Positions 20,204-43,461 of a DNA stretch of 43,461 nt are shown piece after piece. Location of the stretch: positions 1-43,461 of IMG/VR virus record IMGVR_UViG_3300047297_000136; one strand, 5' to 3'. The position numbers were made by a program, and so were the translations under genes. The notes under the pieces were generated by a model. The model was not told the DNA's origin. It did no database searches and was given only the letters and a program-made list of their open reading frames with translations. The stretch is from a virus. Numbering within the stretch: the first letter of the stretch is position 1; each line of letters starts with the position of its first letter.

Positions 20204-20275
20204 AAGTACCGCCGGGGATCGAACCCGGATTACCAGGTATGAGCCCGGCGCTCTCACCTTTTGAGCTAGCCCGCA
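20204..20275 (-). tRNA. Degenerate tRNA-like element, CAT anticodon
   Basis: The minus strand has TA at positions 8-9, a D arm with stem GCTC/GAGC, an anticodon arm CCGGG/CCTGG around CTCATA, and a perfect T arm (CCGGG, TTCGATC, CCCGG). The anticodon loop is one base short, and the 7-bp acceptor strands (TGCGGGC and CGGTACT) do not pair. It is therefore not a normal functional tRNA. It could be a decayed tRNA, an RNase P or RNase processing signal ahead of the capsid gene, or part of an attachment site. The first two fit the position better, as the integrase is 17 kb away. Confidence 0.35.
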
Positions 20276-26423: not shown

Positions 26424-26674
26424 CCCTCTTGGCGCTCCGAGATCGACACCGAGTAGTGCAGGGTGGCTTGGAGCTTGCCGTTGATGAGGGCGCTTGCGGC
26501 GATTTCCTCCACTGCCAGGCGATCTGGTTGCCCTTCTTCGAGAACCCGCTTGACGCGAACCTCGAAGCCAGCCGCACGGGCGGCCGAGACTGCGTTGACG
26601 AGGTCGTCTAGGGCTCCCGCCACGCGGCTCATGTGTTGGGCGGAGGCGTCGGCGATGATTTGCTTGATGTCCAT
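26420..26674 (-). CDS. Unrecognised small protein after DNA polymerase
   Basis: 84 residues from ATG 26674, whose A is shared with the DNA polymerase TAA. The frame extends upstream, but that extension reads through polymerase sequence. The N-terminal half is helical (MDIKQIIADASAQHMSRVAGALDDLVNAVSAARAAG) and the second half mixed alpha/beta (VEEIAASALINGKLQATLHYSVSI). The function is not recognised. The coupling to the polymerase gene suggests a replication role. Confidence 0.75.
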   Translation of the reverse strand: MDIKQIIADASAQHMSRVAGALDDLVNAVSAARAAGFEVRVKRVLEEGQPDRLAVEEIAASALINGKLQATLHYSVSISERQEG

Positions 26675-27161
26675 TAGTGGGTGTCTTTCCAAGATGATCC
26701 GTGAGCGGCTGAACCGCGCAGAGGGATGTTGAACTTGAGGCGCCGTCCCGCCTCTTCGATGGACCACAATGCGGCTGCTTTGATAGCCTCCCGGTGGCGC
26801 GGGTCGTGGGTGATCTGGAACTCGTCGTGGACGTGGGCGACCATTGCCCAGTCCTTGCCCCACACCAGGCCCTCTTCAGTCAGGCGTTGGTACAGAAGCA
26901 CGGGGGCGAGCTTCATGGGCACGGCACCGGCATTCTGGAGGAGTGAGTTCAAGGCCGCGTGTTGCGCCCGGACAGGGACGCGGCGGCCGTCTACGCCCCG
27001 GACATAGCCGAGAGCGCCAGCGGCTTGCTTGACCGCTTTGATGAGGCCTGAGAGGCCGGGGGTACCCTTCAAGAACTTCTTCTTGAGGGCGCCGCCTTCT
27101 TCGGAGCCGCCACCGATGATCTCGCCGATCTTCTCGTTGCCGGCCCCGTAGAGAAATGCAT
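26674..27161 (-). CDS. DNA polymerase, exon 2 (C-terminal part)
   Basis: 3' exon of the T7 gp5-like polymerase. It resumes inside the codon of the O-helix tyrosine and continues AFLYGAGNEKIGEIIGGG, which aligns with FLYGAGDEKIGQIVGAG of T7. It also contains DGRRVPVRAQHAALNSLLQNAGA and the catalytic motif C, VHDEFQI. Read without splicing, this stretch has only an artificial start inside the intron. The joined product keeps frame: exon 1 leaves one base and this exon supplies two. The full protein is about 690-700 residues, against 704 in T7. Confidence 0.93.
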
Positions 27162-27467
27162 CGTAGTGTTCAGCGGGGGTCGCTACTCCCCGCCCGCCTT
27201 TCGGCTGCTGCATGTCGCCATGCAGTCCAGACTATATCTTCACCCTATCACTAGGGGCTGTGCGCTTCCGGCCGCTTGGCCGTACTCCCTTGCGGGATAG
27301 TCGTTGCACCTTCCAAGTACGCGATAGCTTTTAGGATTGCTGCGTTGGTACATGCGGGCTCCTTTCGGATGCTCCGCGTACTTGGCTTGGCTCAGAGTTT
27401 TCTCGGTGAGACGTTCTCTGAGTTCACACAGTTTTAGTCGAGGGGTCTCCCCCAAGTCATCCCATTG
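27162..27467 (-). ncRNA. Group I self-splicing intron in the DNA polymerase gene
   Basis: 306 nt. P1 pairs exon UCAUCU with the guide GGAUGA, giving a U-G pair at the 5' splice site. Core elements are visible: GGUGCAACGACUAUCCC and AAGAUAUAGUCUGGAC, whose CGACUAU and AUAGUC (27297-27303, 27230-27235) form P7. There are also a GGCC-AAGC-GGCC P8-like hairpin and a 7-bp P9-like hairpin with a GCGA loop. The last intron base is G. Removal restores the T7-like KTFIYAFLYGAG sequence. No homing endonuclease is encoded; the 71-codon open frame inside is intron sequence. Introns in T7-like polymerase genes are known (phages PhiI and W31). Confidence 0.93.
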
Positions 27468-29058
27468 AGATGAAGGTCTTCGCGTTCGCTCGGGATGGCA
27501 GGCCAGCTGCCTTCTGGTTCACGGTGTGGATGTCCGTGCCCAGCTCCTTGTCACCCTCGTCGACGATCTTGGCGTAGCGGCCGCCGTCCTTGATGAAGTG
27601 CGCGAGGCACCGCAGCTCCAGGCCGTCAGCGTCGACGCCCATCAGCGCGTGGCCTTCGTCGGCGACAAACAGCGCGCGGCAATCTGCACCATACGGGACG
27701 ACGCCCCTGGCGTTCTCGATGGATGGGACCTGAGCGATGTTCGGGTAGGAGTGAGTGCAGCGGTGCGTGATGGCGCCCAGGGTGTTTACGCTGCCGTGGA
27801 TGCGGCCGTTCTTGACCAGCTTGAGCCAGGCCTGCTTGCCATCAGCGAGCTGACCCAGGCGTTTCTCCAGCATGAAGTACTCAGCCAGAGCCTTGGCAGG
27901 CGGGTAGGGGAGCGCCGACAGGATGTCGTCGTCGATGGTGGGTTCGCCGTTGTCGGTGAACTCAGTCGGGACCCAGCCGTACAGCTTCTGCAATCGGTCG
28001 GAGATGTGCAGCCTGCTGGCGGGGTTGAAGACGCGGAGTTCCACCCGGGTCTGCGGGGTGTCCGGGTCGAGGGTCTCGTAGTAGCCCCGCTGCTGGACGG
28101 TGTCGTAGACCTTACGCTCGACGACCTTGCCGTTCTTCTGGGTAACCGCCTTGGTCTCGCCGCTGTCGATCTTCTGATCGCGGACGATGAAGCCCTCATC
28201 TGAGGAGACCCAGCGGGTCATCTTCTTGGCGGCCTTGCGTGGCCCGAGATTGACGTACCACGGCTTGAACAGGCCGAGGAGGTCGTCGTGAAGGGACGCC
28301 TTGCGTTCGCGGAGGATAGCTTCGAGCTTGCGGGCTGCGGCTTCGTCGAAGCGGAAGCCGTGTTGCTGCTGCTTGAAGATCAGCTTGGCGAACTCGTGCT
28401 CCGTCCACAGAGCACCGACAGCCTCGGCGTAGCCCGGCCGGGCGACCAGCATGTCCCAGAGCTTGGCAGTGACGCGGACGTCCTGCTCGCAGTAGACCTG
28501 CATGTGGCGGTTCCAGGCGGCCCAGGGGTCGATCCCGAGGTCCTTGGCAATCGCCGTGTACTCGCCCTTCATCTCGCCGAGGCGGTAGCCCCAGGCTTCG
28601 AGCTTATGGTTCCCGATGAGGTTCCCGGGGAGCTTCGGCTCCTGCCGCAGGCGGATCGCCTTCTCGCGGACGCGGAAGTCCATGTCCTTGATGTCCCCGA
28701 AGAGGAACCTTGAGAGGATCAAGGTGTCTTCGAGGTTGTCCGTGAGCGGCAGCTCGGGGTAGAGCTTCGAAATGACGGGGACGTCGTACGTGACAATGTT
28801 GTGGCCGATCAGCTTGCCAGCGCGGGAGAGCATCTCCAGGCCGTCTGCGATTGTCGTTGGATCGGGCGGCCGGCGCTTACGGCTCCCATCGGGGTGGAAG
28901 TCGCAGAACGAGAACATCTCCCGCGTCTCGACATCCATGATGACCAGCGAGTGGATCACCGAGACCTCGTCGAGGAGGCCGTTCGTTTCGAGGTCGAAGA
29001 AGTAGGCCTTACCCGAACTCGTATCCGTCTTGGGGCTTGAAGCCATAGTTCTTACCAT
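27468..29058 (-). CDS. DNA polymerase, exon 1 (3'-5' exonuclease and palm)
   Basis: 5' exon of the T7 gp5-like family A replicative polymerase, which in T7 uses host thioredoxin as processivity factor. The exonuclease motif I is FFDLETNGLL. Polymerase motif A is GVDADGLELRCLAHF, nearly identical to T7. The exon ends in SRANAKTFI plus the first base of the tyrosine codon, then runs into the intron, where an unspliced reading stops after three more codons. The start is uncertain: ATG 29058 or ATG 29046 are more plausible than the GTG at 29085, since the gene overlaps the primase-helicase end. Confidence 0.93.
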
Positions 29059-30667
29059 CCTTGGGTTCTTCTTGAGGAGCGTCACACTCCTCCTGGAGGG
29101 TGGTCGTCGGGTTGTAGTGGAGGTGATAGGTACGGCCGGTTGAGCGGCCAGAGGCTCGATCCTTCAGCACACGGAAGGTGGACACCGAGCGGATGTATTC
29201 GTCATCGTGCTGGGAGTTGCGCTCTAGGCCCCACAGGTAGTCGGCGTAGCGCATGATGGCGCGGGAGCCGGTGAATTGCTTGGCCTCGACCTTGCCGCCC
29301 TCCTCGTGCCCAGCCCCGCCAGCCGGCGTTGTCAGGTGCGAGAGGAAGTGGATGTCGATGCCGAGGTTGGAGGCCAGCGACTTGGCGTCCTTCATGAGGA
29401 AGTCGAGGAAGCGGCGCTCGTCTTCAGCGTCAGCCGAGAGGAGCGTGAGGTTGTCGATGTACGCCGACTTGACGTCGAACGCTTTGACGACCCAGCGCAG
29501 CCAGGTCTTGACCTCGTCCCACGTAACTTCGAGGACGCGGTGGTCGTAGATGAAGAGCTTGTCTTCATATCCGTCGAGGACGCCACGCAGCTCTTCCTCC
29601 GTGTACTCACAGTCTGGCAGGAAGTAGGGCTTGCCGGTCAGCTTCGCCGCGATCCGCTTGGGGGTCTCCGGGGGTGGCTGCTCAGCGTGGAGCACAGCGA
29701 TGGCTCGGCCTTGCTTCAGGTCATGGGCTTCCATTTCGGTGAAGATGTCGGTCTTGCCGATGCCTACGCCAGCGCCGCCGACCCAGACGTGTCCGGGCTT
29801 CGGGCCGTAGGACCACTCGTAGACCTTCGCCATGCAGTCGGGTAGGGTCTTGCCCCACTCGGCCGGCTTAACGGCTTCGTCGATCAGGGAGGAGAGTGTC
29901 GCGACGCCGTCCGGCCGATAGGGCTTCGCCTCGTACACCGAGCTGGTGATCTGCGCGGTGAGGCCAGCCTGGAGGAGGGCGTTGGGGTCCATGCCGTCTG
30001 GCATGTGGGCGATCTTCGCCTTACCGGGGGACAGGATCGCAGCGCATTCGCGGGCGCCGTTGCGGCCAGGCTCGTCGCCGTCGAACATGAAGACGACCTC
30101 GTCGAAGGTCTCAAGCCAGTCGACGTTCTGCTCGATGGCCTTGAGGCTCGTCGCGCCGTCAGGGACGGACACCACGGGCCACTTCAGGTCGAGCACTTGG
30201 GCCACAGTGAGGGCGTCGATCTCGCCTTCGGTGACGATCACGCGGCGCGAGCCTGCGCCCCACGCATGCTGCCCGAAGAGGAGCTTCTGGACTTCCTTTG
30301 GCCCCCGCCAGCCGAACTTCTTCCCGGCCTTGCGGACCTTCTGGGCGACGACCTCGCCTTTCCGGTTGCGGTACTCGGCGATCTGCACGGGCTCGCCGTT
30401 GACAGTCGCCAGCTTGTACCCGAGCTTTCTGAGGGCGTCAGCGCGCAGGCCTCGCGAGGGGAGGTCGGCGTATTCGCCTGATGGGATGAGTTCGATCACT
30501 CGGGGTTCGTCCTTTCTTGAAGCGGAAAAGGCCCCGGAACCTTTCGATCCCGAGGCCTTCTCGTAGTGTTTGCATCCGAAGCAGTGCGCTGAGCCGTCAA
30601 CGTAGCGGGCCAGGTTGTCCTTTGACCCGCAGTTGGGGCACGGCTCGTGCCGTAGGAACTCAGCCAT
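29009..30667 (-). CDS. Primase-helicase (gp4-like)
   Basis: 552 residues from ATG 30667, against 566 in T7. The N-terminal zinc ribbon has C10, C13, C29 and C32 with the same spacing as T7. The TOPRIM primase centre shows VTEGEIDALT and MFDGDEPG, and the helicase Walker A is GAGVGIGKTDIF. Walker B and other RecA-type segments follow (YIDNLTLLSADAEDE, IDIHFLSHL). The C-terminal tail is acidic (GYEFG end), as required for contact with polymerase. It overlaps the amidase stop by eight bases. Confidence 0.96.
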   Translation of the reverse strand: MAEFLRHEPCPNCGSKDNLARYVDGSAHCFGCKHYEKASGSKGSGAFSASRKDEPRVIELIPSGEYADLPSRGLRADALRKLGYKLATVNGEPVQIAEYRNRKGEVVAQKVRKAGKKFGWRGPKEVQKLLFGQHAWGAGSRRVIVTEGEIDALTVAQVLDLKWPVVSVPDGATSLKAIEQNVDWLETFDEVVFMFDGDEPGRNGARECAAILSPGKAKIAHMPDGMDPNALLQAGLTAQITSSVYEAKPYRPDGVATLSSLIDEAVKPAEWGKTLPDCMAKVYEWSYGPKPGHVWVGGAGVGIGKTDIFTEMEAHDLKQGRAIAVLHAEQPPPETPKRIAAKLTGKPYFLPDCEYTEEELRGVLDGYEDKLFIYDHRVLEVTWDEVKTWLRWVVKAFDVKSAYIDNLTLLSADAEDERRFLDFLMKDAKSLASNLGIDIHFLSHLTTPAGGAGHEEGGKVEAKQFTGSRAIMRYADYLWGLERNSQHDDEYIRSVSTFRVLKDRASGRSTGRTYHLHYNPTTTLQEECDAPQEEPKDGKNYGFKPQDGYEFG

Positions 30668-34733: not shown

Positions 34734-37235
34734 TTACGCGAAGAAATACAAGGAGTTAAGCACGTCGGTGATATCAAGATCGCCTTGCGCCGGAACCTCA
34801 GGAACCTTCTCAGCGTAGGTCTCAGGAAGCTGTGAGATGATCTCGTCCCGGAAGGACGTGAGCCAGCAGCGCTCCTGGTACATTTCCACGAAGGCCTGTC
34901 GAAGCGCGAAGGCCAGAGCCTCAGTATCGCTGGCATGCGTGGCGTAGCTGTCGTGGACCATCGACAAGTGCATGTCCTGCCGGCCGCGATCCGTGAGGAA
35001 CTCGACCGTCCTGAGCATATGCCCCGCGTCCATGCTGTGGACGAAGTTCGGGGCGATGGCCATGGCCATGCGGCGCTTGCTGATGCGATCCTCGACGCCA
35101 TCGGCGACCATCACCCGAATGCGCTGGCCGAACGTGAGCAGCTCGACCTCTCGGGTCTTGTCGTCACGGTAGTCCTGCCGGACCTTGAAGCCTGTCGGCG
35201 TGGTCCATTGCAGGGGCACGTTCGCCTCGGCTGCCACCTTGGCGACCGACTGGAGCCAGTCCATGGCCACCCGAGCGGCGACCACGACCTGTCCGGTCGA
35301 GGCCCACACGATGTGGGACAGGTACTGGGCAGCCATCGGCCCCCCTGTTCCGAAGGGGCTTGCACCGGCCTTCTCGATGGGACGAATGGTGTCCTCGACG
35401 ATCTGGTCAGCGAAGCCCTGACGGGTGGCACCGTAGGGTAGGGTCATGACGGGGCGCTTGACAACGCCGCGCGCCATGACAGGAAGCCACTGTGCGGCCA
35501 CTGTGTCTCCGCCCTTGGCTTTCCCTTCGAGATCGGCGACGGCCACCTTGAGTACCACCGAGTAGATGTCGCTGGGACGTTCACTCGGAAGCAGGTTGAC
35601 CGCCGCACCGCCGATGGGATCGCGCAGCATGGCAGAGAGGTGTTGGAGGCCGTTGCAGGAGCCGTCCATTGCGATGGGCAGGTGGGACACGAAGCCGTCG
35701 CCGGCCTCGCGCGCCGCAGCCCACTCGTAGCAGAACGCGAGGAACTGGAAGGGCTTGTCAGCCTGCGTCCAGAAACGCTCCCCTATGGGGTCCTCAGCGA
35801 CCCGGAGGATCGCCTCTTCGTTCTGAAGGACCCACTCGACACGGTCGTCGAGGGGAACCTTGTCGACCCCGTAGGTGTTCGCACCGTGGATGGCCAGCCA
35901 GTAGCCTCCGCCCTCACCGAGGGCCTTGCCATTGCCGAACTCCAGGATGCCCTTGGAGAGGTCGTCGCCCTGTGGCTTCAGGAAGAGCGGAAGGTCGTAC
36001 ACCCGGCCCCGGAAGTCGATGACTTTGGGGAACCAGATGGACGGGTAATCCGCCATGTCCTGGGCCACGAGGACCACCTTGTCACACGCGAGGGAGGTCG
36101 ACTGGATACGCCGGTTGGCCTCTCGGACCTTCCGGGCAGCCGTGCGCCACACCTTGCGTGCGTCTTCGTTGGTGTCGATGTCGTGGGGCACAGGCGGCAG
36201 GGGGATGAACTGCGAAGGGGGCAAGCCCGCCTCGGCGATGTTCATCTTGCGCATGTACTCGACGACCGCGAGCACCTTCTTGTTGATCCTCCAGGGGGTG
36301 TTCTGGAGGAAGTTCAGGGCCTCGAACATTCGCGGCATGTGTTCGGCGTCCGCCGTCTTCACACCGTTCGAGGCGCTGCGTTTCACCATCAGCCGGCTCA
36401 TCCGGCCCTTCCGCCAGTACCCGCCGTCGCTCATGGAGGTCCACGGCTTCGGAGGAATGATGGTCGGCAGGAACGTCGGACGCAGGAGTGAGGCCGCGAG
36501 GCCTGCCTTCTGGAGCGCCTCCGCAGTCTCCTGCGTGAAGGCAATGTACCGCTTCGTGTGCGTCTTGCTCAGCTTGAAAGATTGCTCCTCAATAAAGCCG
36601 AGCGACACCATTGCCATCACGAGGGATGAGCCAAGGCGGAGCATTTCCGTCCCGGTCATGATCTCCTCCATAGTCAATGGTTGCGCGTCTTCGCCGCGCT
36701 CCGCCGCCTCGGCCACCTGACGGGCAGCCTTGAGGATTTGGCGGACACGTTCGGACGTGTTCGAGGTGCGCTCGGCGATCTGCTTCACGCGGGCCTCGAA
36801 CAGGGGCCGCTCTTCCTTGCGAAGGATGCGGGCAATCGTCTCGGCACATATGAGCTTGCCGATACGCTGGCCAACCCTCTGGACCGAGGCGGCCTCCTCG
36901 CCGTACTGCGCGATGAAGTCGACCACGCACCGAAGCGCAATGGCCGCGCTGTCGCGAGGCGGGAGGAGCAGGAGAGATGCCAGCTCGGGAGGCTTGCGCT
37001 TGACGCGCCCCTCGGAGAGCCGGTCGATCTCCTCCCGGATCATTGATGCCAGCGGGTCGACCATCCCGGAGATGACGTACCGACCGGACTTCGTGCTTCC
37101 CGCGCTGCCACGCTCGGCAGCCTTGCGGTCGGCGGCCAGGCGCTGGTCGCGCCCGAGAACCACCATGTGTTCCTCCCACAGCTCTTCGAGAGCAAGTTCC
37201 TCGGCGGTGGGCGGAGAATACATCAGGTTTGTCAT
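34734..37235 (-). CDS. Single-subunit phage RNA polymerase (gp1-like)
   Basis: 833 residues, against 883 in T7. Catalytic motifs are complete: WRG-like FRGRVYDLP (about 408-416), motif A AMDGSCNGLQHLSAMLRD with D524, motif B KRPVMTLPYG with K593 and Y601, and motif C MVHDSYATHASD with D762. The C-terminus ends in FFA, like the FAFA foot of T7. It transcribes class II and III genes from its own promoters. It lies after the integrase and a strong terminator, so it needs readthrough or a local host promoter, which I cannot identify. An AGGAG site precedes ATG 37235. Confidence 0.97.
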   Translation of the reverse strand: MTNLMYSPPTAEELALEELWEEHMVVLGRDQRLAADRKAAERGSAGSTKSGRYVISGMVDPLASMIREEIDRLSEGRVKRKPPELASLLLLPPRDSAAIALRCVVDFIAQYGEEAASVQRVGQRIGKLICAETIARILRKEERPLFEARVKQIAERTSNTSERVRQILKAARQVAEAAERGEDAQPLTMEEIMTGTEMLRLGSSLVMAMVSLGFIEEQSFKLSKTHTKRYIAFTQETAEALQKAGLAASLLRPTFLPTIIPPKPWTSMSDGGYWRKGRMSRLMVKRSASNGVKTADAEHMPRMFEALNFLQNTPWRINKKVLAVVEYMRKMNIAEAGLPPSQFIPLPPVPHDIDTNEDARKVWRTAARKVREANRRIQSTSLACDKVVLVAQDMADYPSIWFPKVIDFRGRVYDLPLFLKPQGDDLSKGILEFGNGKALGEGGGYWLAIHGANTYGVDKVPLDDRVEWVLQNEEAILRVAEDPIGERFWTQADKPFQFLAFCYEWAAAREAGDGFVSHLPIAMDGSCNGLQHLSAMLRDPIGGAAVNLLPSERPSDIYSVVLKVAVADLEGKAKGGDTVAAQWLPVMARGVVKRPVMTLPYGATRQGFADQIVEDTIRPIEKAGASPFGTGGPMAAQYLSHIVWASTGQVVVAARVAMDWLQSVAKVAAEANVPLQWTTPTGFKVRQDYRDDKTREVELLTFGQRIRVMVADGVEDRISKRRMAMAIAPNFVHSMDAGHMLRTVEFLTDRGRQDMHLSMVHDSYATHASDTEALAFALRQAFVEMYQERCWLTSFRDEIISQLPETYAEKVPEVPAQGDLDITDVLNSLYFFA

Positions 37236-37461
37236 GGGAATGTTCTCCTATTGAGCGTGTGCCTTCGACGCCGCGGAACACGCGCCGCGTCACTTTTGAC
37301 ATCCGAACTGCAAATACCGCGCGGTCGGACCTTTCCCGCTGGCCGTGTTCGCCAGTGTGGTTAACTATCGCTGCTGGGAATGCACGCGACGTGGGAAATT
37401 TAAGCTGCTGGAACCTAACACGGTGTGCCACAGCGTCACTGATGCGTCACCACAAAAAGCA
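37236..37461 (-). other. RNA polymerase leader region
   Basis: About 225 bases between the integrase terminator and the RNA polymerase gene. It is less GC-rich than its surroundings in the middle (TTAAATTTCC, GATAGTTAACC) and could hold a host promoter, but I see no good -35/-10 pair. Short repeats of GTGACGC flank the upper part. It may also be an attachment site for the integrase, judged only by location. Confidence 0.4.
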
Positions 37462-37490
37462 GCCCCCTCAGCGCGGACGCCAAGGGGGCC
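37452..37490 (-). terminator. Strong intrinsic terminator downstream of the integrase
   Basis: On the minus strand, GCCCCCTTGGCG-TCCG-CGCTGAGGGGGC forms a 12-bp hairpin with two G-U pairs, followed by TGCTTTTTG. It ends the early transcription unit before the RNA polymerase gene. Confidence 0.9.
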
Positions 37491-37525
37491 AAGGTTGCAC
37501 ACACCAGAGGTGTTTCGGAGGGATG

Positions 37526-37552: not shown

Positions 37553-38572
37553 TCATTGCTCAAGCAGGTCCCTGGCCCGCTCAAGGGAGATCGGCGCCAG
37601 CTTGGCGTACCGCTCAGTCATTTTGATGTTGGTGTGACCCAACCAGTCCCTGACCAGCATCAGGTCGCGCGTCCGCTCGTACAGGCGCGTGGCGCATGTG
37701 TGGCGGAGGGCGTACGGGATGAACCCATCGTCGCCGGCGAGCCCCATGCGGACCTTCGCGTAGTCCCAAGCGTGGCGAACCACGCCGGACGTTGCCCAGT
37801 CGCAAGGGTGTGCCGGGTCGAGGGCCTTCAGGTACACCCAGGCCTCCTCTGCGCGGTGGGTAAGGGGCACCACGCGGGTGCGGCCCGTCTTCGTCTCGCG
37901 TAGGGTCATCAGGCGACCGGTCACGGCATCGCCCTTCGAAGCAGCCAACTCGGACCGGCGAGCGCCAGTGTCCATGAGCAGGGTGAAGAGGGCAACGAAA
38001 CGCCGCTGGTCGACGCCGGGTGGCATGCTGGCGAGGAGGGCTTGAAACTCCCCCTCGGTCAGCACTCGGTCCCGCAGGTTGTCGCCAACCTTGGGCAGCT
38101 CGACGGTGGGGACAGTCTTCAGGTTGCCCCGGCGATGGAAATGCCGGAACGCCTTGGACATAACCGCGTGCTTCGAGCGGATCGTCGAGGGTGTGTAGCC
38201 CTTGCGGGTCATCCACACCACGAAGTCGTCGAGGTCCGCCGAAGTGATGGCCGCGAGGTCGCGACCTTCTCCGAAGAACTCGACGCACACCGCCATGTTG
38301 GAGCGTACCGTGCGGGCTTGGCCGCCGCTGCTCCAGTAACGCTGCCAGACATCCTCCAGCGCCGCCTTGAGGGGCAGGCCTTTGGATACCGCAGCGTGTT
38401 CACTGTGGGGCACAGGGTCAACACCGGCCAGTAGGTCGGCGCGAACGCGTGCCTCAAAGGCTTTGGCTGCGGTCATGTCGGCGCGGATCGTCTCGCGGTA
38501 CCGGCGCTTATCGCCAGCCACGGTGACCTGCACGTCTACTTCCAGGCCTGAGCCTCTCGGTCGAATGGTCAT
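37553..38572 (-). CDS. int: Tyrosine recombinase / phage integrase
   Basis: 339 residues. The N-terminal arm-binding and SAM-like core-binding domains (ALEDVWQRYWSSGGQARTVRSNMAVCVEFFGEG) precede the catalytic domain with R205 (TGARRSE), K228, YALRHTCATRL (R290, with Y287 where a His is usual), H313 and nucleophile Y322 (GHTNIKMTERYA). The enzyme should be active and suggests a temperate or once-temperate phage, as in several T7-like relatives with an integrase before the RNA polymerase gene. It is the last gene of the early unit and is released by hammerhead 10. GAGGAGAG precedes the ATG. Confidence 0.95.
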   Translation of the reverse strand: MTIRPRGSGLEVDVQVTVAGDKRRYRETIRADMTAAKAFEARVRADLLAGVDPVPHSEHAAVSKGLPLKAALEDVWQRYWSSGGQARTVRSNMAVCVEFFGEGRDLAAITSADLDDFVVWMTRKGYTPSTIRSKHAVMSKAFRHFHRRGNLKTVPTVELPKVGDNLRDRVLTEGEFQALLASMPPGVDQRRFVALFTLLMDTGARRSELAASKGDAVTGRLMTLRETKTGRTRVVPLTHRAEEAWVYLKALDPAHPCDWATSGVVRHAWDYAKVRMGLAGDDGFIPYALRHTCATRLYERTRDLMLVRDWLGHTNIKMTERYAKLAPISLERARDLLEQ

Positions 38573-38614: not shown

Positions 38615-38674
38615 GGTCTCATCAGTCAGGGCTTGACCCTGAGACGCCGACCCCTAAGGGCCAGCGTTTCGACC
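38615..38674 (-). ncRNA. Hammerhead ribozyme 10, type II (before integrase)
   Basis: Order on the RNA: stem II GGUC, GAAA, stem III ACGCUGGCCC/GGGGUCGGCGU, GUC, stem I UCAGGG-UCAAG-CCCUGA, CUGAUGA, stem II GACC. The predicted cleavage is between 38643 and 38642. Stem II directly follows the upstream TAA (38675-38677). Cleavage separates the last unknown early gene from the integrase mRNA. Confidence 0.92.
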
Positions 38675-39052
38675 TTACGTCAGGTAGTTGATCGCCTTGC
38701 GGAACTCATCTTCGAAGTACGCCCGTTCTGGCGACGTCACAGATCGAGCGTATTCAATAACCCGGTCGTGCGCGGCTTGGATCGCCCGTATCTTGCTAAA
38801 GGCCTCAACGCTCTCGAAAGCGACGTAGCCCCTATCCTTCAGCGACCAGAGGTCCTGACCGTTGAGGCGTTGATCCTCCGCGATTTTGTCACGGAGTTCC
38901 ACCGGGAGGGCTGCGCCGACAGCGCACGGGGCGCCGGTGGCGTCACCCTTGTACTTGCACAGTATTTCGCCATTCTGGAAGCCAAGCTCCCCCCTCGAGT
39001 AGGCCTCGCGGGCAGCGCTTTCGACGGCTTCGAGTGTAAGCAGGTAGGTCAT
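38675..39052 (-). CDS. Early protein of unknown function (125 residues)
   Basis: 125 residues with a mixed alpha/beta look, including LEAVESAAREAYSRGELGFQNGEILCKYKGDATGAPCAVGAALPVELRDKIAEDQRL. The start ATG 39052 has GAAAGGCACACACATG, the shared early-gene leader. It lies between hammerheads 9 and 10, so it would be monocistronic after cleavage. I do not recognise a family. T7-like early proteins commonly act on host defence or host enzymes, which is only context. Confidence 0.8.
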   Translation of the reverse strand: MTYLLTLEAVESAAREAYSRGELGFQNGEILCKYKGDATGAPCAVGAALPVELRDKIAEDQRLNGQDLWSLKDRGYVAFESVEAFSKIRAIQAAHDRVIEYARSVTSPERAYFEDEFRKAINYLT

Positions 39053-39087
39053 GTGTGTGCCTTTCAGTTTCGCCGCAGTGCGGCTGT

Positions 39088-39145
39088 GGTCTCATCAGTG
39101 CCCGCGTGACGGGCAGACCCCCGGGTTTCCCCGAGGGTTTCGACC
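39088..39145 (-). ncRNA. Hammerhead ribozyme 9, type II
   Basis: Stem II GGUC/GACC, GAAA, stem III ACCCUCGGG/CCCGGGGGU with a GAAA loop, GUC, stem I UGCCCG-UCACG-CGGGCA, CUGAUGA. The predicted cleavage is between 39116 and 39115. The upstream stop codon UAG overlaps stem II by its G (39145). Downstream lie a GCCGCA-CTGCGGC hairpin and the GAAAGGCACACACATG leader. Confidence 0.94.
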
Positions 39146-39453
39146 TACGACCAGCCGTCCCGTTTAGAGCTCGGGTCCTGATCTTCTGGAACGCGTTCAA
39201 GGAACGTCGAGTGGACCATGGTCCGTGTACCGCGATCCCATCCGACCACGAAGACCGCGTTGGGCAGGCCGCCCTCGGCGACCGTGCCGCAGTCATCGTC
39301 GGTGCTGAGGTGCAGCTTGTGATCCCGGAGGGTCAGCTTGTGCGCCTCCGTGTAGCGGACGCGGTCGCCCTTCGTTAGGGTGCGCGCCTGCTCCACTTGG
39401 CCTGCTGTGTGGAGGCCGTTGTTTCCGAGCGTGTTGCCATTGTGATAGAGCAT
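39145..39453 (-). CDS. Early protein of unknown function (102 residues)
   Basis: 102 residues from ATG 39453, which has a GAAAGG site; a frame extension upstream lacks a better start. LTKGDRVRYTEAHKLTLRDHKLHLSTDDDCGTVAEGGLPNAVFVVGWDRGTRTMVHSTFLERV looks like a small SH3-like beta barrel (KGDRV, GTV, VVGWD, HSTFLERV). Such barrels bind nucleic acid or protein, and no specific function is claimed. Its stop TAG is shared with ribozyme 9. Confidence 0.78.
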   Translation of the reverse strand: MLYHNGNTLGNNGLHTAGQVEQARTLTKGDRVRYTEAHKLTLRDHKLHLSTDDDCGTVAEGGLPNAVFVVGWDRGTRTMVHSTFLERVPEDQDPSSKRDGWS

Positions 39454-39488
39454 TGGTGTGCCTTTCAATGTCGCCGCAATGCGGCTGT

Positions 39489-39540
39489 GGTCTCATCAGT
39501 GGGCGCTTGACGCCCAGACCGGGTTGCCCCGGTTTCGACC
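39489..39540 (-). ncRNA. Hammerhead ribozyme 8, type II
   Basis: The most compact copy. It has stem II GGUC/GACC, GAAA, stem III ACCGGG/CCCGGU capped by GCAA, GUC, stem I UGGGCG-UCAAG-CGCCCA and CUGAUGA. The predicted cleavage is between 39517 and 39516. The upstream stop TAG overlaps stem II (39540). Confidence 0.94.
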
Positions 39541-39743
39541 TAGTCGAGCTTTCGTTCGACGCCGAGTTCTTCCTCGATCCACGCCATCGCGGTGCAGATG
39601 TCGGACCATTGCTCGTCGTACGCGGGGTCTCCCTCTGGTATGCAGTCTTCCCGAAAACCGGCGAGGGCTTCCCAGACTGCGTCAACCCAGCTCTTCGGGT
39701 CTCCTGCGCGAACTGCCTGTGCGGCGGTTTCCTTGTCGCTCAT
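39540..39743 (-). CDS. Early acidic protein of unknown function (67 residues)
   Basis: 67 residues from ATG 39743 with the shared CACACACATG leader. About a third is Asp/Glu (EDCIPEGDPAYDEQWSDICTAMAWIEEELG). Small acidic early proteins of T7-like phages include DNA mimics such as Ocr, but no sequence resemblance is seen here. It lies between ribozymes 7 and 8. Confidence 0.75.
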   Translation of the reverse strand: MSDKETAAQAVRAGDPKSWVDAVWEALAGFREDCIPEGDPAYDEQWSDICTAMAWIEEELGVERKLD

Positions 39744-39762
39744 GTGTGTGTGCCTTTCATTG

Positions 39763-39818
39763 GGTCTCATCAGTGACGGCTTAACCGTCAGACCACGGAT
39801 TGCTCCGTGGTTTCGACC
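39763..39818 (-). ncRNA. Hammerhead ribozyme 7, type II
   Basis: Stem II GGUC/GACC, GAAA, stem III ACCACGG/CCGUGGU with an AGCAAU loop, GUC, stem I UGACGG-UUAAG-CCGUCA, CUGAUGA. The predicted cleavage is between 39791 and 39790. The upstream TAG (39818-39820) overlaps stem II. Confidence 0.95.
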
Positions 39819-40594
39819 TAGTCGGCCTTCTTGCCGCTCAGCTTCTCAGCCAGCGACTTGAAGATAACTACGTTCGGCCCCGCCGGGGCGGCCTTGCGGC
39901 GCGGCTTGCGAGAGGCCTGCTTGACAGGGGCGCGGGCAGCTTGTGCCTGAGCCTCTGCCTTGCGCTGCATCTGACGCTCGGCCCGCGCGATGGCGAGGTG
40001 GCCGAAGATCAGGGCAAACGCGGTGAGGGCCATGACGCCCCCGGATAGCCAACGCGGGAATAGCTGCTTTGGCTCTGGCTTGACGAGTGCATCCACTCGG
40101 GCCTGAGCGGTCTCAAGGTTTGCCGTGAGGACCGCGTGTGTCGCCACGTAGGTGTCGGCCTTCCGGATTGCTCCGGTGGCGTCCGGCGTGGGAAGGGCAG
40201 CGAGCTTGGCCTGAGCCTCGTCCCGCGCGGCGGTGACCTTGTCAGCCTCCGCCTGATACTCCGTGAGCGCCCTTTCGTTCACGGCTTGGTTTGCGACGGC
40301 ATCGAACTGCCATATCGCATTGGCGTGGCTTCCGGCCTCCATCGCCGTGAAGACGATGATGGTGAGCCACGCCAACACCCCGCCGCCGTGCATGGCTGGC
40401 CCGGATAGGGCAGCAGCCACAAGGGGCGCCACGAGGGCCACGAGGGCCGCCATGATTGCGAGGTGGTGAGACACATCCCAGAAGGCAAGCGTCCATCCTG
40501 CCGCGCCGAACCCGGCGAGGACAAGGGTTGCCGCCCAGAGGGCCAAGCGTTCCGCGAGGAAGTGGGGACGCTTGTGTTTCCGACGTTTAGCCAT
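39818..40594 (-). CDS. Early membrane protein with periplasmic coiled coil
   Basis: 258 residues. It has three hydrophobic helices near the N-terminus (LALWAATLVLAGFGAAGWTLAFW, LAIMAALVALVAPLVAAALSG, GVLAWLTIIVFTAMEAGS), a charged helix with likely coiled coil (VNERALTEYQAEADKVTAARDEAQAKLAALP) and another membrane helix (LSGGVMALTAFALIFGHLAIA) before a basic tail (ASRKPRRKA). A membrane protein made first in infection could act in superinfection exclusion or host takeover, but that is inference. The start ATG 40594 has a weak GGAG site. Confidence 0.82.
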   Translation of the reverse strand: MAKRRKHKRPHFLAERLALWAATLVLAGFGAAGWTLAFWDVSHHLAIMAALVALVAPLVAAALSGPAMHGGGVLAWLTIIVFTAMEAGSHANAIWQFDAVANQAVNERALTEYQAEADKVTAARDEAQAKLAALPTPDATGAIRKADTYVATHAVLTANLETAQARVDALVKPEPKQLFPRWLSGGVMALTAFALIFGHLAIARAERQMQRKAEAQAQAARAPVKQASRKPRRKAAPAGPNVVIFKSLAEKLSGKKAD

Positions 40595-40632
40595 TGAGTG
40601 CTCCGTGTGTGTGTCTGTGTGTGTCTGTGAGA

Positions 40633-40695
40633 GGTCTCATCAGTGCCCGCATGACGGGCAGACTAGGCAGCCGCGAGGGCCACCTAGTTTCGACC
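40633..40695 (-). ncRNA. Hammerhead ribozyme 6, type II
   Basis: Stem II GGUC/GACC, GAAA, an 11-bp stem III ACUAGGUGGCC/GGCUGCCUAGU with a CUCGC loop, GUC, stem I UGCCCG-UCAUG-CGGGCA, CUGAUGA. The predicted cleavage is between 40661 and 40660. The upstream stop is six bases before stem II. A CA-rich leader of about 30 bases follows. Confidence 0.93.
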
Positions 40696-40701
40696 TGACA
40701 A

Positions 40702-41322
40702 CTATGCCGCCAAACCGAAGGCGGTGACGTGCAGACGGGACACTTCCGAGCCGTCAGCGAAGCGATCCGGGCGGAGGCTGGCGACGTAGTCGCACCAGCT
40801 ATCCCAGAGCGCCGCGCCGCCGCCGACAGTGGCCACCAGAGCGCAGTACTCGACGATGCGAGTGATGCGTGCCTCAGGTGTGCGCAGTGCCTTGAACGCA
40901 GAAGCGGAGAAGCGACCGGCGTTGGCCCCGAAGCGCTTCATGTTGTGGCTATCCATGCAGCCGCCGACGCCGAACGCCAGCTGTGCCACGAAGGCACCCT
41001 TGACCAGACCGAGGCCGGGCAGGGTGGCCAGATAGGCAAGCAGGGCAACTTCGCGGCCAGCCTGCTCTTGCACGCCCTCATGGATCGCCATGAGGTCGGC
41101 ATAGATGGTCTCCCGGTGTGCCGCGTAGTGCCGCAGCGCCTCGGATTTCCAGCCCCAAGCGTACTTGGAAGCCGGGCCATTCTCGCGATAGTCGGCGAGG
41201 ATGGCGGGCACCTGTTCGATTGGCTGCTGAATTGTCGCCGTCACGAACATGAACACGGCCTCAAGGTTCTCGGCGGATTGCCGAGCCCAGTGGCCAATGA
41301 TCGGATTATGTGTGTGAAACAT
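40702..41322 (-). CDS. Early protein of unknown function (206 residues)
   Basis: 206 residues. The segment LLAYLATLPGLGLVKGAFVAQLAFGVGGCMDSHNMKRFG (about 93-131) has the LPGLGLVKA-type turn of helix-hairpin-helix DNA-binding motifs. The N-terminal half contains YRENGPASKYAWGWKSEALRHYAAHRETIY and the C-terminal half RIVEYCALVATVGGGAALWDSW. A DNA-binding role is plausible. The start ATG 41322 has AAAGGCACACACATG. Confidence 0.8.
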   Translation of the reverse strand: MFHTHNPIIGHWARQSAENLEAVFMFVTATIQQPIEQVPAILADYRENGPASKYAWGWKSEALRHYAAHRETIYADLMAIHEGVQEQAGREVALLAYLATLPGLGLVKGAFVAQLAFGVGGCMDSHNMKRFGANAGRFSASAFKALRTPEARITRIVEYCALVATVGGGAALWDSWCDYVASLRPDRFADGSEVSRLHVTAFGLAA

Positions 41323-41345
41323 GTGTGTGCCTTTGTGTTTTCTGA

Positions 41346-41405
41346 GGTCTCATCAGTGACGGCTTAACCGTCAGACCACGGAGGGTGACCCCCGTGGTTT
41401 CGACC
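41346..41405 (-). ncRNA. Hammerhead ribozyme 5, type II
   Basis: Identical in sequence to ribozyme 4: stem II GGUC/GACC, GAAA, stem III ACCACGG/CCGUGGU with an extended GGG-UCA-CCC tip, GUC, stem I UGACGG-UUAAG-CCGUCA, CUGAUGA. The predicted cleavage is between 41374 and 41373. The TAG of the upstream gene overlaps stem II (41405). Confidence 0.95.
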
Positions 41406-41680
41406 TATTCCCAACACTTTGCGATGCCGAACTTGGCGAGGTTTGGGTAATCCGCGACCGCGCCTTCGGCGAAGCGCACAGCATCCGTTCTGTTGTCGTA
41501 ATCGGCAATCCAATCCACGCCGCCTTCCGGCAGGTGGACGTATACGGACCAGAAGTCCGCACCGGCAGCCTTGGTCTGGCGCTCGACGGCGTCCCCCACT
41601 ATTGTGCAGGGTGCAACCTCCAGCCCGTCGCCTCTCTCCGCGATGTCTCTCCAGTATTGTTCCCTGTCGATAACGCTCAT
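41405..41680 (-). CDS. Early protein of unknown function (91 residues)
   Basis: 91 residues (MSVIDREQYWRDIAERGDGLEVAPCTIVGDAVERQTKAAGADFWSVYVHLPEGGVDWIADYDNRTDAVRFAEGAVADYP). It is acidic with Trp and Tyr residues, and a mixed alpha/beta fold is likely. The start ATG 41680 has GAAAGGCACACACATG. No family recognised. It lies between hammerheads 4 and 5, which share the same sequence. Confidence 0.78.
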   Translation of the reverse strand: MSVIDREQYWRDIAERGDGLEVAPCTIVGDAVERQTKAAGADFWSVYVHLPEGGVDWIADYDNRTDAVRFAEGAVADYPNLAKFGIAKCWE

Positions 41681-41697
41681 GTGTGTGCCTTTCAGGT

Positions 41698-41757
41698 GGT
41701 CTCATCAGTGACGGCTTAACCGTCAGACCACGGAGGGTGACCCCCGTGGTTTCGACC
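41698..41757 (-). ncRNA. Hammerhead ribozyme 4, type II
   Basis: Same 60-base sequence as ribozyme 5, 352 bases away. The predicted cleavage is between 41726 and 41725. The TAG of the upstream gene (41757-41759) overlaps stem II. Identity of the two copies suggests recent duplication or conversion. Confidence 0.95.
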
Positions 41758-42137
41758 TATGCTGCGATCAGGTGCTGCGTGATCTGGCGCCCGGTGGGGC
41801 TCATGTACTCTTGGCCGAAGAGGCGAGCGGTGAACTCACCCTTGGCGAATGACACGGCTACCTTGCGTTTACCGAAGGCCGCCGCGCCAAAGTCAGCAAT
41901 GGCCTGCCGCGTGGTGGCGGTAGGGTAGCCGCAGTGGTCAAGGATCAGCGCGCCGCCCAGAAAGATCGGTTTGTACCGGGTGAAGGTGAACACCGGGTGC
42001 CCGTGAAGGAGCCCGATGATCTGATCCTCATGCTCGCACCGGACGTGTGACACCTCCCGATTGTTACCCACCTTCTTGCGAAGGCCGGGCTCAAAGCTAG
42101 CGAAGCGAAACAGTTCCGGGTGTGTGATTTCAGCCAT
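41757..42137 (-). CDS. Early protein of unknown function (126 residues)
   Basis: 126 residues from ATG 42137; the frame extends upstream, but the ribozyme and leader occupy that region. ELFRFASFEPGLRKKVGNNREVSHVRCEHEDQIIGLLHGHPVFTFTRYKPIFLGGALILDHCGYPTATTRQAIADF suggests alternating strands and a final helix. No family recognised. GAAAGGCACACACATG precedes the start. Confidence 0.78.
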   Translation of the reverse strand: MAEITHPELFRFASFEPGLRKKVGNNREVSHVRCEHEDQIIGLLHGHPVFTFTRYKPIFLGGALILDHCGYPTATTRQAIADFGAAAFGKRKVAVSFAKGEFTARLFGQEYMSPTGRQITQHLIAA

Positions 42138-42152
42138 GTGTGTGCCTTTCGT

Positions 42153-42215
42153 GGTCTCATCAGACGGTGCTTGACACCGTGACAGGCACGCCGCGAGGGC
42201 GCACCTGTTTCGACC
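42153..42215 (-). ncRNA. Hammerhead ribozyme 3, type II
   Basis: Stem II GGUC/GACC, GAAA, an 11-bp stem III ACAGGUGCGCC/GGCGUGCCUGU with a CUCGC loop, GUC, stem I ACGGUG-UCAAG-CACCGU, CUGAUGA. The predicted cleavage is between 42181 and 42180. Ten bases separate it from the upstream stop codon. Confidence 0.94.
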
Positions 42216-42225
42216 TGACAAATAC

Positions 42226-42591
42226 TCAGGCAGCAACAGCCGCCTGTGCCAGTCTCTCGCCATTCGGCAAGAGGAAATATTCAGCGTTGAAGCTGCCCCA
42301 CGCCGAAGCGCGGGGACCGGCGAGGAAGCCCCTCCCGGTGTGTGTATCGAAGAACGCAATTGCGTCCTGATCGAAGGCCTTGGAGAGCCGTTCGACCTGC
42401 CCCGTTGACACCGGAGCCGCCACGTCTACGACGAGCGTGGGTTCCGTGTCCGAGGTGTGCACATAGGCTTGTGCGGCGCGGCCCCAAAGGGCTTTGACGC
42501 AATCCATCAGGACCGCCACATTGAGTGGAGCCTTTGGTGCCACCTGAGAAGCCTCAGAGCGGAGCAAGCCAATGTTGAGAATGGTACGCAT
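42226..42591 (-). CDS. Early protein of unknown function (121 residues)
   Basis: 121 residues from ATG 42591 with a GGGGAG site; an upstream frame extension carries no better start. NVAVLMDCVKALWGRAAQAYVHTSDTEPTLVVDVAAPVSTGQVERLSKAFDQDAIAFFDTHTGRGFLAGPRA shows a helix, strands and a second helix. No family recognised. Confidence 0.78.
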   Translation of the reverse strand: MRTILNIGLLRSEASQVAPKAPLNVAVLMDCVKALWGRAAQAYVHTSDTEPTLVVDVAAPVSTGQVERLSKAFDQDAIAFFDTHTGRGFLAGPRASAWGSFNAEYFLLPNGERLAQAAVAA

Positions 42592-42623
42592 GTGTGTGTG
42601 TCTCCCCGGGAGCTGCCCGGTGT

Positions 42624-42688
42624 GTCTCATCAGGCTAGGAGCGACCTAGCGACCCTCGGGGACCAAAAGGGGTCCCCTAGGTTTCGAC
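42624..42688 (-). ncRNA. Hammerhead ribozyme 2, type II
   Basis: Stem II is only GUC/GAC (3 bp). GAAA is followed by a long stem III ACCU...GGGU continued by GGGGACC/GGUCCCC across a small internal loop, then GUC, stem I GCUAGG-UCGCU-CCUAGC and CUGAUGA. The predicted cleavage is between 42651 and 42650. The upstream TAA directly abuts stem II. Confidence 0.88.
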
Positions 42689-42916
42689 TTAGTTAAAGCG
42701 CCAAGCGCCCTTGGTTGCCCAGTTAATCTGGACAAGAACGCCCGTTGACAGCTCTTGGCCGTCATCACCGCTACGGAACCAATCAATGGCTCCGCAAATG
42801 TGCTCAATACGTGATGAAATCGCGGCTCGGACCCTAGGACCCTTGGCCGACGCATAGTCCTTTTCAGCCGCCTTGAGGGCGTCTTCGAGAATAGCGATTG
42901 CGTCTTCGTCATGCAT
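42689..42916 (-). CDS. First early protein, unknown function (75 residues)
   Basis: 75 residues from ATG 42916, which has AAAGGACACACACATG, the early leader. The frame extends to 43048, but that part overlaps the type III ribozyme. DAIAILEDALKAAEKDYASAKGPRVRAAISSRIEHICGAIDWFRSGDD is helical, and the tail GQELSTGVLVQINWATKGAWRFN is beta-like. As the first gene made, it should meet host defences first. No family recognised. Confidence 0.78.
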   Translation of the reverse strand: MHDEDAIAILEDALKAAEKDYASAKGPRVRAAISSRIEHICGAIDWFRSGDDGQELSTGVLVQINWATKGAWRFN

Positions 42917-42931
42917 GTGTGTGTCCTTTGT

Positions 42932-42985
42932 GTGTGTTTCGGGGTCTCTGCCCCTCATCAGACCGCCTCTGTGGCGGTGACACAC
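42932..42985 (-). ncRNA. Hammerhead ribozyme 1, type III, in the early leader
   Basis: Topology differs from the others: stem III GUGUGU/ACACAC encloses the molecule, then GUC, stem I ACCGCC-ACAGA-GGCGGU, CUGAUGA, a closed stem II GGGG-CAGAGA-CCCC, GAAA. The predicted cleavage is between 42979 and 42978. It would give the first mRNA a defined 5' end about 60 bases before its start codon. Confidence 0.9.
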
Positions 42986-43155
42986 TCCCCTCACTAGGTG
43001 GCGTTTCGCATTGCTCCCCTCCGCAGGGGCCTCGCTTGAGGGCCGCACCTAATTCCCATGTACCGGCCACCGCATGTGGCCTAATGGCGCCGCCCACTGT
43101 TATCCGGGAAGGGCAGGTGTCCCGACCGATCAGCGTTGTCGCCGTCGATGAGTGA
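42986..43155 (-). other. Early-region leader
   Basis: About 170 bases between the host promoter candidate and the type III ribozyme. It holds hairpins (for example GGCCAC/GTGGCC near 43060-43080 and CCCC-TGCGGA-GGGG near 43020) and no gene I can support. Other host promoters may be present but are not recognisable. Confidence 0.5.
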
Positions 43156-43184
43156 AAGATCGCACCAATCGCCGAAAATGTCAA
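43156..43184 (-). promoter_or_regulatory. Host sigma70-type early promoter candidate
   Basis: The minus strand has a perfect -35 TTGACA (43184-43179), a 17-base spacer and a -10-like GATCTT (43161-43156, three of six matches). It lies in the AT-rich part of the right end and directs transcription into the early genes. The start would be near 43149. The -10 is weak, so confidence is moderate. Confidence 0.5.
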
Positions 43185-43262: not shown

Positions 43263-43461
43263 GGGTGGTACCAAGGGTGGTGCCACGGGTGGTGCCAAGG
43301 GCGGTGCCTAGGGCGGTGCCTAGGGTGGTGCCACGGGTGGTGCCTAGGGTGGTGCCTAGGGTGGTGCCTAGGGTGGTGCCTAGGGTGGTGCCTAGGGTGG
43401 TGCCTAGGGTGGTGCCTAGGGTGGTGCCTAGGGTGGTGCCTAGGGTGGTGCCTAGGGTGGA
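43263..43461. repeat. Right terminal 12-bp repeat array
   Basis: Sixteen consecutive 12-bp units from 43263 and a final GGGTGGA. The first six units are degenerate (GGGTGGTACCAA, GGGTGGTGCCAC, GGGTGGTGCCAA, two of GGGCGGTGCCTA, GGGTGGTGCCAC). Units from 43335 are perfect and identical to the left end. Confidence 0.88.

Follow-up and report, generated by a model that had tools for sequence, protein, structure and literature searches.

Organization of the early region

The window analyzed here spans positions 1–43,461 of virus record IMGVR_UViG_3300047297_000136, and the hammerhead array that we describe occupies positions 38615–42985 on its minus strand. As listed in Table 1, nine early genes are followed by a tyrosine integrase and a T7-like RNA polymerase. 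A T7-like polymerase with early genes upstream is likewise found in the temperate T7-like phage LUZ100 (PMC10134795) and in the phages HTVC019P, HTVC031P and HTVC109P, and in LUZ100, HTVC019P and HTVC109P the integrase also precedes the polymerase. We infer that the hairpin at 37491–37460 is the end of the early unit; LUZ100 has a terminator, T4, at the matching position after its integrase (PMC10134795). The interval from integrase to polymerase contains no hammerhead. DNA similarity to named phages is limited to an 80-base match with Dickeya phage DchS19, and a peptide-pattern search of viral contigs based on the integrase returned no relatives.

Table 1. Features of the early region, given from 5' to 3' along the minus strand (bits are covariance-model scores unless marked Rfam).
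Feature	Position	Strand	Predicted cut	Details
Leader hammerhead, type III	42932..42985	-	after 42979	GUGUGUC/ACCGCC; stems I/II/III of 6/4/5 pairs plus A15.1-U16.1; core CTGATGA, GAAA
Early gene 1	42689..42916	-		75 aa, no known family
Gap hammerhead 1, type II, weakest copy	42624..42688	-	after 42651	35.6 bits, E 8e-9, model built without this copy
Early gene 2	42226..42591	-		121 aa, phrog_11722, no function known
Gap hammerhead 2, type II	42153..42215	-	after 42181	descriptor; 62.0 bits
Early gene 3	41757..42137	-		126 aa, no function known
Gap hammerhead 3, type II	41698..41757	-	after 41726	descriptor; 68.9 bits; fold z -3.9
Early gene 4	41405..41680	-		91 aa, no function known
Gap hammerhead 4, type II, same sequence as gap 3	41346..41405	-	after 41374	descriptor; 66.2 bits
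Early gene 5	40702..41322	-		206 aa, no function known; homologue in L127
Gap hammerhead 5, type II	40633..40695	-	after 40661	descriptor; 63.3 bits; Rfam RF02276 26.5 bits
Early gene 6	39818..40594	-		258 aa, weakly DUF4407-like; of the small early genes, the only one that L126 also has
Gap hammerhead 6, type II	39763..39818	-	after 39791	descriptor; 67.2 bits; fold z -4.7
Early gene 7	39540..39743	-		67 aa, no function known
Gap hammerhead 7, type II	39489..39540	-	after 39517	descriptor; 74.6 bits
Early gene 8	39145..39453	-		102 aa, no function known
Gap hammerhead 8, type II	39088..39145	-	after 39116	descriptor; 68.6 bits; Rfam RF02276 36.4 bits, cut-off 37
Early gene 9	38675..39052	-		125 aa, phrog_38685, no function known
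Gap hammerhead 9, type II, before integrase	38615..38674	-	after 38643	descriptor; 64.7 bits
Tyrosine integrase, final gene of the ribozyme-divided operon	37553..38572	-		phrog_1, 4e-48
Terminator-like hairpin 3' of integrase	37460..37491	-		14 pairs, then CTTTTTG
T7-like RNA polymerase	34734..37235	-		phrog_414, 1e-239

Ten hammerhead motifs in the leader and gaps

A reading of this DNA from its sequence only had proposed a type III hammerhead for the leader and a type II hammerhead for each of the nine gaps that follow. All ten proved to lie at those places, on the minus strand; every gap of the early unit as far as the integrase has a single candidate cut site. The claimed CUGAUGA and GAAA cores and GUC triplet, together with the A-U pair adjoining the cut, are present in every copy, and the ten cut sites in Table 1 coincide exactly with those predicted. 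A strict independent descriptor scan recovered nine of the ten copies and gave no further match on either strand of the window. The same descriptor found nothing in 200 shuffled sequences, which rules out chance similarity as the origin of the motifs. The copy that it missed, cut at 42651, was confirmed by hand and by a covariance model built without it.

All ten copies carry the hammerhead core C3 U4 G5 A6 N7 G8 A9 / G12 A13 A14 / A15.1-U16.1 / H17, surrounded by three helices with compensatory change (the 42651 copy having an internal loop in stem III). Stems I and III are closed by loops and stem II is open in the nine gap copies, as in type II elements, while the leader copy has stems I and II closed and stem III open, the type III arrangement. 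Taken as a whole, the array has multiple hammerheads on either side of individual phage genes, all transcribed in the same direction, the pattern described by Perreault et al. in 2011 (PMC3088659). By every sequence criterion the ten elements are hammerheads. The copies cut at 41726 and 41374 are identical, leaving eight distinct type II sequences.

Two copies deserve separate mention. The 42651 copy has a stem II of only 3 bp and the internal loop in its stem III is bounded by CCUAG..CGAGGG; a module resembling it recurs in the closest relative, the locus L126, which suggests a variant form and not a decayed element. The GUGUGUC of the leader has a competing partner, a downstream GACACAC, with which its pairing is slightly more stable than with the active one (-27.0 vs -23.4 kcal/mol). 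The leader region is conserved in L126, where the type III element is the minimum-energy fold. If the leader is instead read as type II, with use of the upstream GCGAAACGCC that is also conserved in L126, the element scores 19.8 bits and its stem III has only 3 bp, for which reason type III was retained. The conserved leader also contains a TTGACA element, at which a promoter scan made no call.

Structure, covariation and Rfam scores

Aligning the nine gap copies alone with MAFFT gave a poor result owing to their hairpin lengths, and alignment A4 was used instead. In this alignment the window type II copies have a 4-bp stem II flanked by a conserved A, and a stem I with a UNANG loop. For the seven gap copies that were folded with a complete stem II, the minimum-energy structure from RNAfold was the three-way junction every time. 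The claim of compensated stems also held up: pairing in stem I is 100% within copies vs 47% across copies, and the outer five pairs of stem III, with the imperfect 42651 copy included, pair at 96% vs 51%. The covariation score was 0.67, compared with 0.13 in shuffled alignments and at most 0.11 when slid, the outside rows of the alignment having been picked by pairing. The covariance model recovered elements that were left out of it, namely the window 42651 copy (E 8e-9) and those of HTVC109P (E 5e-14) and HTVC031P (E 9e-12).

An Rfam hammerhead search, which the sequence-only reading had suggested as a check, did not return the array, as none of the ten copies reached the gathering score (best 36.4 vs 37, others at most 26.5 bits). 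This score is a curated threshold and not a structural definition. The Rfam type II family, RF02276, has in common with the window gap copies the permutation with stem II open, the core and the GUC triplet; the copies differ from it in falling below the cut-off, in the stem II and stem I loop features given above and in the loop I–3' tail pseudoknot, which by eye is absent in eight of the nine type II copies, a 4-nt partner just past stem II being present only in the 38643 copy. The pseudoknot occurs in a majority of type II and ~40% of all hammerheads and is not obligatory (PMC3088659). Because the Rfam cut-off misses them, arrays of this kind are probably under-counted.

Recurrence in other T7-like phages

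Comparison with the gaps of related T7-like phages showed that the arrangement recurs there, which the sequence-only reading had not seen. Across 155 T7-like RNA-polymerase loci we found 71 sense-strand hammerheads upstream of the polymerase (in 503 kb), two matches downstream of it (in 838 kb) and one antisense match, with about two matches expected from shuffled sequences for the survey. A second set of 79 genome loci gave eight hammerheads upstream, none downstream and one antisense; this genome scan met T7-like prophages in many hosts, with polymerase-strand hammerheads at only four loci. In the closest relative, L126, a type III leader is accompanied by nine type II copies and one element with a variant core. 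Only gene 6, the integrase and the polymerase are recognizably common to the window and L126, and most early genes differ. This sense-only and early-only placement, kept despite turnover of the neighboring genes, fits a role in processing of the early transcript.

The cultured pelagiphages HTVC019P, HTVC031P and HTVC109P each have one to three hammerheads, all unannotated, in sets that are smaller than the window array and mix types I, II and III. Predicted cuts fall at 296/297, 1333/1334 and 2148/2149 in HTVC031P and at 593/594, 1158/1159 and 2350/2351 in HTVC109P. Strict and relaxed scans found no hammerheads in pelagiphages HTVC120P, HTVC121P and HTVC200P, nor in LUZ100, Pasto, Lo5R7ANS, BB8, RHEph21, CRP-125 and CRP-227, which are unrelated integrase-bearing T7-like phages. 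Since many T7-like phages do without hammerheads, hammerhead processing is not essential to the group.

Ribozyme type, position and stop codons

A position rule that the sequence-only reading had missed emerged from these arrays: type III is confined to the 5' end, and the gaps are occupied by type I or II. The type III element lies ahead of every type I or II element in its array, and an ORF stop lies within 60 nt upstream of 64 of 74 type I or II elements compared with 3 of 14 type III elements (Fisher 3e-6); both statistics ignore shared ancestry. Of 143 type II elements in phages, 116 have an upstream stop that ends no more than 12 nt 5' of the stem II inner base; the distances peak sharply from -2 to -6, and the stop almost never ends within the core. 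In the window the upstream stop lies at -3 or -4 in seven of the nine gaps, the stop of gene 1 and that before the 39116 copy being at -3 each.

Proposed processing of the early transcript

In T7, host RNase III cuts the early polycistronic RNA between genes to give smaller mRNAs with hairpin ends. We consider it likely that hammerhead cutting divides the early operon described here in a similar way, giving mostly monocistronic mRNAs without an enzyme. The early transcript of this T7-like, integrase-bearing phage, presumably made by host polymerase, would be cut once after the leader and once per gap in the nine gaps that precede the integrase, with neither RNase III nor another enzyme. Compared with T7, the predicted cuts would thus be RNA-catalyzed, would leave 5'-OH and cyclic-phosphate ends, would need no host enzyme and would be confined to the early region. 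The resulting pieces compute to 274–870 nt, in agreement with the sizes claimed earlier, plus a last piece of ~1.2 kb holding the integrase and ending at the strong terminator-like hairpin. From the leader cut onward the predicted lengths are 328, 470, 455, 352, 713, 870, 274, 401, 473 and about 1,180 nt.

At a type II site the upstream mRNA would keep the stem III hairpin at its 3' end, with a 2',3'-cyclic phosphate, and the downstream mRNA would start with a 5'-OH and the stem I hairpin. Type II cuts at both ends would therefore cap each early mRNA with hairpins at both ends. Types I and II would alike leave a hairpin on the upstream mRNA 3' end. The leader has no upstream mRNA in need of one, which would account for its type III element; the cut there would give the first mRNA two 5' hairpins. 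The analysis shows the identity, positions and covariation of the motifs, their restriction to the early sense strand and the position rule; cleavage, mRNA stabilization and an advantage to the phage we infer. The literature holds no published RNA ends that we could find for the window phage or its hammerhead-bearing relatives.

The stop codon spacing described above, with the upstream stop abutting or overlapping stem II, would also suit ribozymes that cleave but chiefly regulate. A terminating ribosome would then sit over stem II and the strand with GAAA, delaying cleavage until translation of that gene slackens, with cleavage timing mRNA decay or release. We regard this as unlikely. The compact gaps of phages could by themselves produce such spacing.

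We assign a much lower probability to the elements being mainly DNA-level cassette joints or selfish repeats for early-gene swaps by recombination, with incidental ribozyme activity. Early-gene content has indeed changed from the window to L126, whereas the gap elements were retained, and the copies look shuffled or converted: those at 41726 and 41374 are the same, and the copy that precedes gene 6 in L126 resembles the window 39791 copy at 91% and the window copy before gene 6 at 67%. However, recombination needs sequence identity, and here the stems diverge freely, yet their pairing persists along with the core, A15.1-U16.1 and the cleavage triplet. In addition, equivalent gaps in relatives are filled by permutations I, II and III on the sense strand, with the single antisense match noted for the 155 loci. 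Stems that diverge with their pairing kept, and permutations that are interchangeable, show selection on RNA function. A selfish repeat as the main cause was rejected because the stems vary while pairing persists, and cassette exchange may be a side effect.

Religation of neighboring hammerhead ends into circular single-gene RNAs, by the ribozymes or by host RtcB ligase, is least probable of all: pieces between two cuts would bear the 5'-OH and 2',3'-cyclic phosphate of RtcB substrates and the T7-like relative Lo5R7ANS has genes annotated as tRNA splicing ligase, but that phage has no detected hammerheads, no ligase is among the window proteins examined, and Perreault et al. sought circular or spliced products and found none (PMC3088659).

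Relation to known systems

Enzyme-free processing thus stands as our preferred account. The part of the sequence-only reading that proposed it agrees with the sequence criteria, the placement in every gap and the comparative data; its claim of novelty was overstated. Perreault et al. reported in 2011 that serial hammerheads flank single genes in prophage and phage DNA, proposed for small prophage clusters that they make single-gene mRNAs from long phage transcripts, and found cleavage of tandem phage and prophage hammerheads in vitro and of a triple set in E. coli (PMC3088659). The kind of system and its processing rationale are known. Those clusters were tandem sets, up to triple in the text, among variable genes, whereas the window has ten hammerheads in a row that begin with a type III leader, continue as type II copies in every gap of a T7-like early operon and belong to an arrangement recurring across a phage group. 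The scale, the T7-like early setting and the position rule appear to be new. LUZ100, despite its similar layout, differs from the window in having no hammerheads.

A broader proposal is that a whole lineage uses all-RNA early processing in place of enzymes, with type III at the 5' end, types I and II in the gaps, stop-fused elements whose cleavage is gated by ribosomes, and mobile gene-plus-ribozyme modules; this we offer tentatively, as something rather doubtful. What hammerheads do for bacteria and phages has been an open question since 2011, and a ten-fold early sense-strand array with a permutation rule yields sharp predictions of RNA ends. Enzyme-free processing, if true, would explain how T7-like phages could divide their early mRNA where host RNase III is unsuitable. 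HTVC019P, HTVC031P and HTVC109P are cultured phages of Pelagibacter with like elements, which makes the idea testable now.

Hammerhead motifs in the window

The window contains ten CTGATGA cores, from 42961 to 38625, every one inside a gap. The first belongs to a type III hammerhead (GUGUGUC / ACCGCC..GGCGGU CUGAUGA GGGG..CCCC GAAA CACAC), and the remaining nine are type II, laid out as GGUC GAAA, stem III hairpin, UC, stem I hairpin and CUGAUGA GACC. These copies were found by core letters; a strict descriptor requiring the core, A15.1-U16.1, NUH and three stems recovered nine of the ten, with no further match on either strand of the window and none in 200 shuffles. Copy 42651 (copies are named by predicted cut site) was missed because its stem III has an internal loop, and a covariance model built without it scored it at 35.6 bits (E 8e-9). 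Both searches bear out the succession of one type III and nine type II motifs described in the sequence-only reading. The Rfam search suggested there matched the top copy at 36.4, just below the cut-off of 37, which means that none of the ten would be picked up in routine annotation.

The stems vary with compensation: pairing within copies versus across copies is 100% versus 47% for stem I and 96% versus 51% for stem III. The 100% pairing of the covariation alignment is biased, since its outside rows were chosen partly by pairing. Of the gap copies, the seven folded with the whole of stem II all came out as the three-way junction by folding alone, and gap-copy z-scores were mostly near -4; the leader copy has a competing fold. 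Across a widespread type II subclass found in phages, the gap copies included, the stem I loop (consensus UNANG) and one A next to stem II hardly vary (columns 44-46 of A4, the type II alignment). They probably form a tertiary contact in place of the known pseudoknot. From sequence, we infer that the window hammerheads are active.

Hammerheads in other phages

With no more than GTCGAAA and CTGATGAGAC fixed, a pattern search of viral contigs gave at least 120 matching stretches, and 134 of 143 distinct middles fold as stem III and stem I hairpins versus 0.6% of shuffled middles. Comparison with T7-like relatives, also called for earlier, shows that such hammerheads recur: 155 loci anchored on T7-like polymerases hold 71 hammerheads upstream on the polymerase strand, 2 downstream and 1 antisense (8, 0 and 1 in 79 bacterial-genome loci), and relatedness inflates the statistics. 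Descriptor scans under-count; L126, the closest relative, yields 2 by the strict and 9 by the relaxed scan.

The L126 polymerase is 70% identical to that of the window, and its hammerheads comprise a type III leader, nine type II elements and one more whose core is altered to CUGAUGG. Gene 6 (258 aa, weakly DUF4407-like) is the only small early gene recognisable between the two, and the array therefore persists during gene turnover. In L126 an extra U follows CUGAAGA in the leader and in two of the type II copies; these variants and the CUGAUGG copy are natural material for core mutants. Between the window and L126 the leader, in which TTGACA and the stretch GCGAAACGCCAYCYAGTGAGGG occur, shows strong conservation that exceeds that of the early genes; the early promoter or a different RNA element may reside there.

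Covariance-model searches gave E values of 5e-14 and 9e-12 for the type II copies of the cultured pelagiphages HTVC109P and HTVC031P. HTVC019P, HTVC022P, HTVC201P and HTVC021P, listed in the table, are likewise named phages in culture whose hammerheads had escaped annotation. Annotated HTVC109P gene starts fall within predicted hammerheads, which suggests wrong start calls. Type II hammerheads also follow one another, seven to eight in number and with pseudoknot-type loops, in L042, an unrelated phage, where they lie near resolvase (RusA-like) and anti-restriction (ArdA-like) genes.

Features of the window and of other phages
Genome	Feature	Positions	Detail
Window	Terminal direct repeats	1-126 and 43263-43460	12-bp unit GGGTGGTGCCTA, about 10 and 16 copies
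Window	Repeats	757-898	72-bp unit
Window	tRNA-like match	20212-20268	Rfam 32.7 bits
Window	Group I intron	27208-27479	Rfam 75.8 bits
Window	DNA polymerase gene parts flanking the intron	27457-29085 and 26674-27213	
Window	Conserved leader	42985-43180	
L126	Core variants	3972-4038, 6230-6307, 7649-7726	
L042	Type II array	8156-11322	
HTVC109P (L133)	Gene starts within hammerheads	589-816 and 1121-1387	
HTVC109P	Hammerheads II, I, II		unannotated
HTVC031P	Hammerheads III, II, I		unannotated
HTVC019P, HTVC022P, HTVC201P	One type I hammerhead each		unannotated
HTVC021P	One type III hammerhead		unannotated

Proposed processing of the early transcript

The predicted cuts would divide the early RNA, as first proposed, into single-gene pieces (274-870 nt) and a last piece of about 1.2 kb with the integrase, which ends at a 14-pair terminator-like hairpin; the stretch of the window between the integrase and the polymerase is free of hammerheads. 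The best-supported reading of these sequences is that serial self-cleavage would yield hairpin-capped monocistronic mRNAs. T7 early mRNA is processed by RNase III, and we propose the array as an RNA-only counterpart.

Throughout the T7-like set, type III stands ahead of all type I and II elements in every array that has it (chance under random order in 11 arrays about 3e-6, ignoring shared ancestry). An ORF stop lies within 60 nt upstream of 64 of 74 type I/II elements versus 3 of 14 type III (Fisher 3e-6). In types I and II, unlike type III, the piece upstream of the cut retains the stem III hairpin at its 3' end. We infer that position follows this 3' hairpin on the upstream mRNA: type III would be affordable solely in the leader, because the piece upstream of it is no mRNA, and type II alone would place hairpins on both cleavage products.

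The upstream stop codon ends 3-4 bases before the inner end of the stem II 5' strand in seven of nine window gaps, and of 143 phage type II elements 116 are spaced just as tightly. Ribosome gating through a stop codon abutting the hammerhead is a plausible addition to serial self-cleavage. Less likely are hammerheads serving as cassette joints, or cleavage that leads to circular RNAs.

The sequence-only reading named no phage known to self-process an early operon serially in this way. Perreault et al. 2011 (PMC3088659) had already described prophage hammerheads that flank single genes and proposed processing into single-gene mRNAs; in their work tandem sets cleaved in vitro, and in E. coli a triple set did so. 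Among open full texts, no paper joins hammerheads with Autographiviridae, and one, a general perspective, joins them with pelagiphages; such absence is weak evidence.

Other features of the genome

The virus record, 43,461 bases long with terminal direct repeats, is possibly a complete linear genome. On its minus strand, T7-like genes encode RNA polymerase (phrog_414), primase/helicase, DNA polymerase, connector, capsid, tail, internal virion protein and terminase. The integrase directly precedes the RNA polymerase, as in LUZ100, a temperate T7-like phage, and integrase-bearing pelagiphages. A group I intron interrupts the DNA polymerase gene; no homing endonuclease was noticed. The tRNA-like match is without an acceptor stem, ARAGORN called no tRNA, and the match is possibly an attachment-site remnant. 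Adjoining the terminase end is a 72-bp unit repeated twice, followed by 12-bp ACCTAAGGTAAT repeats.
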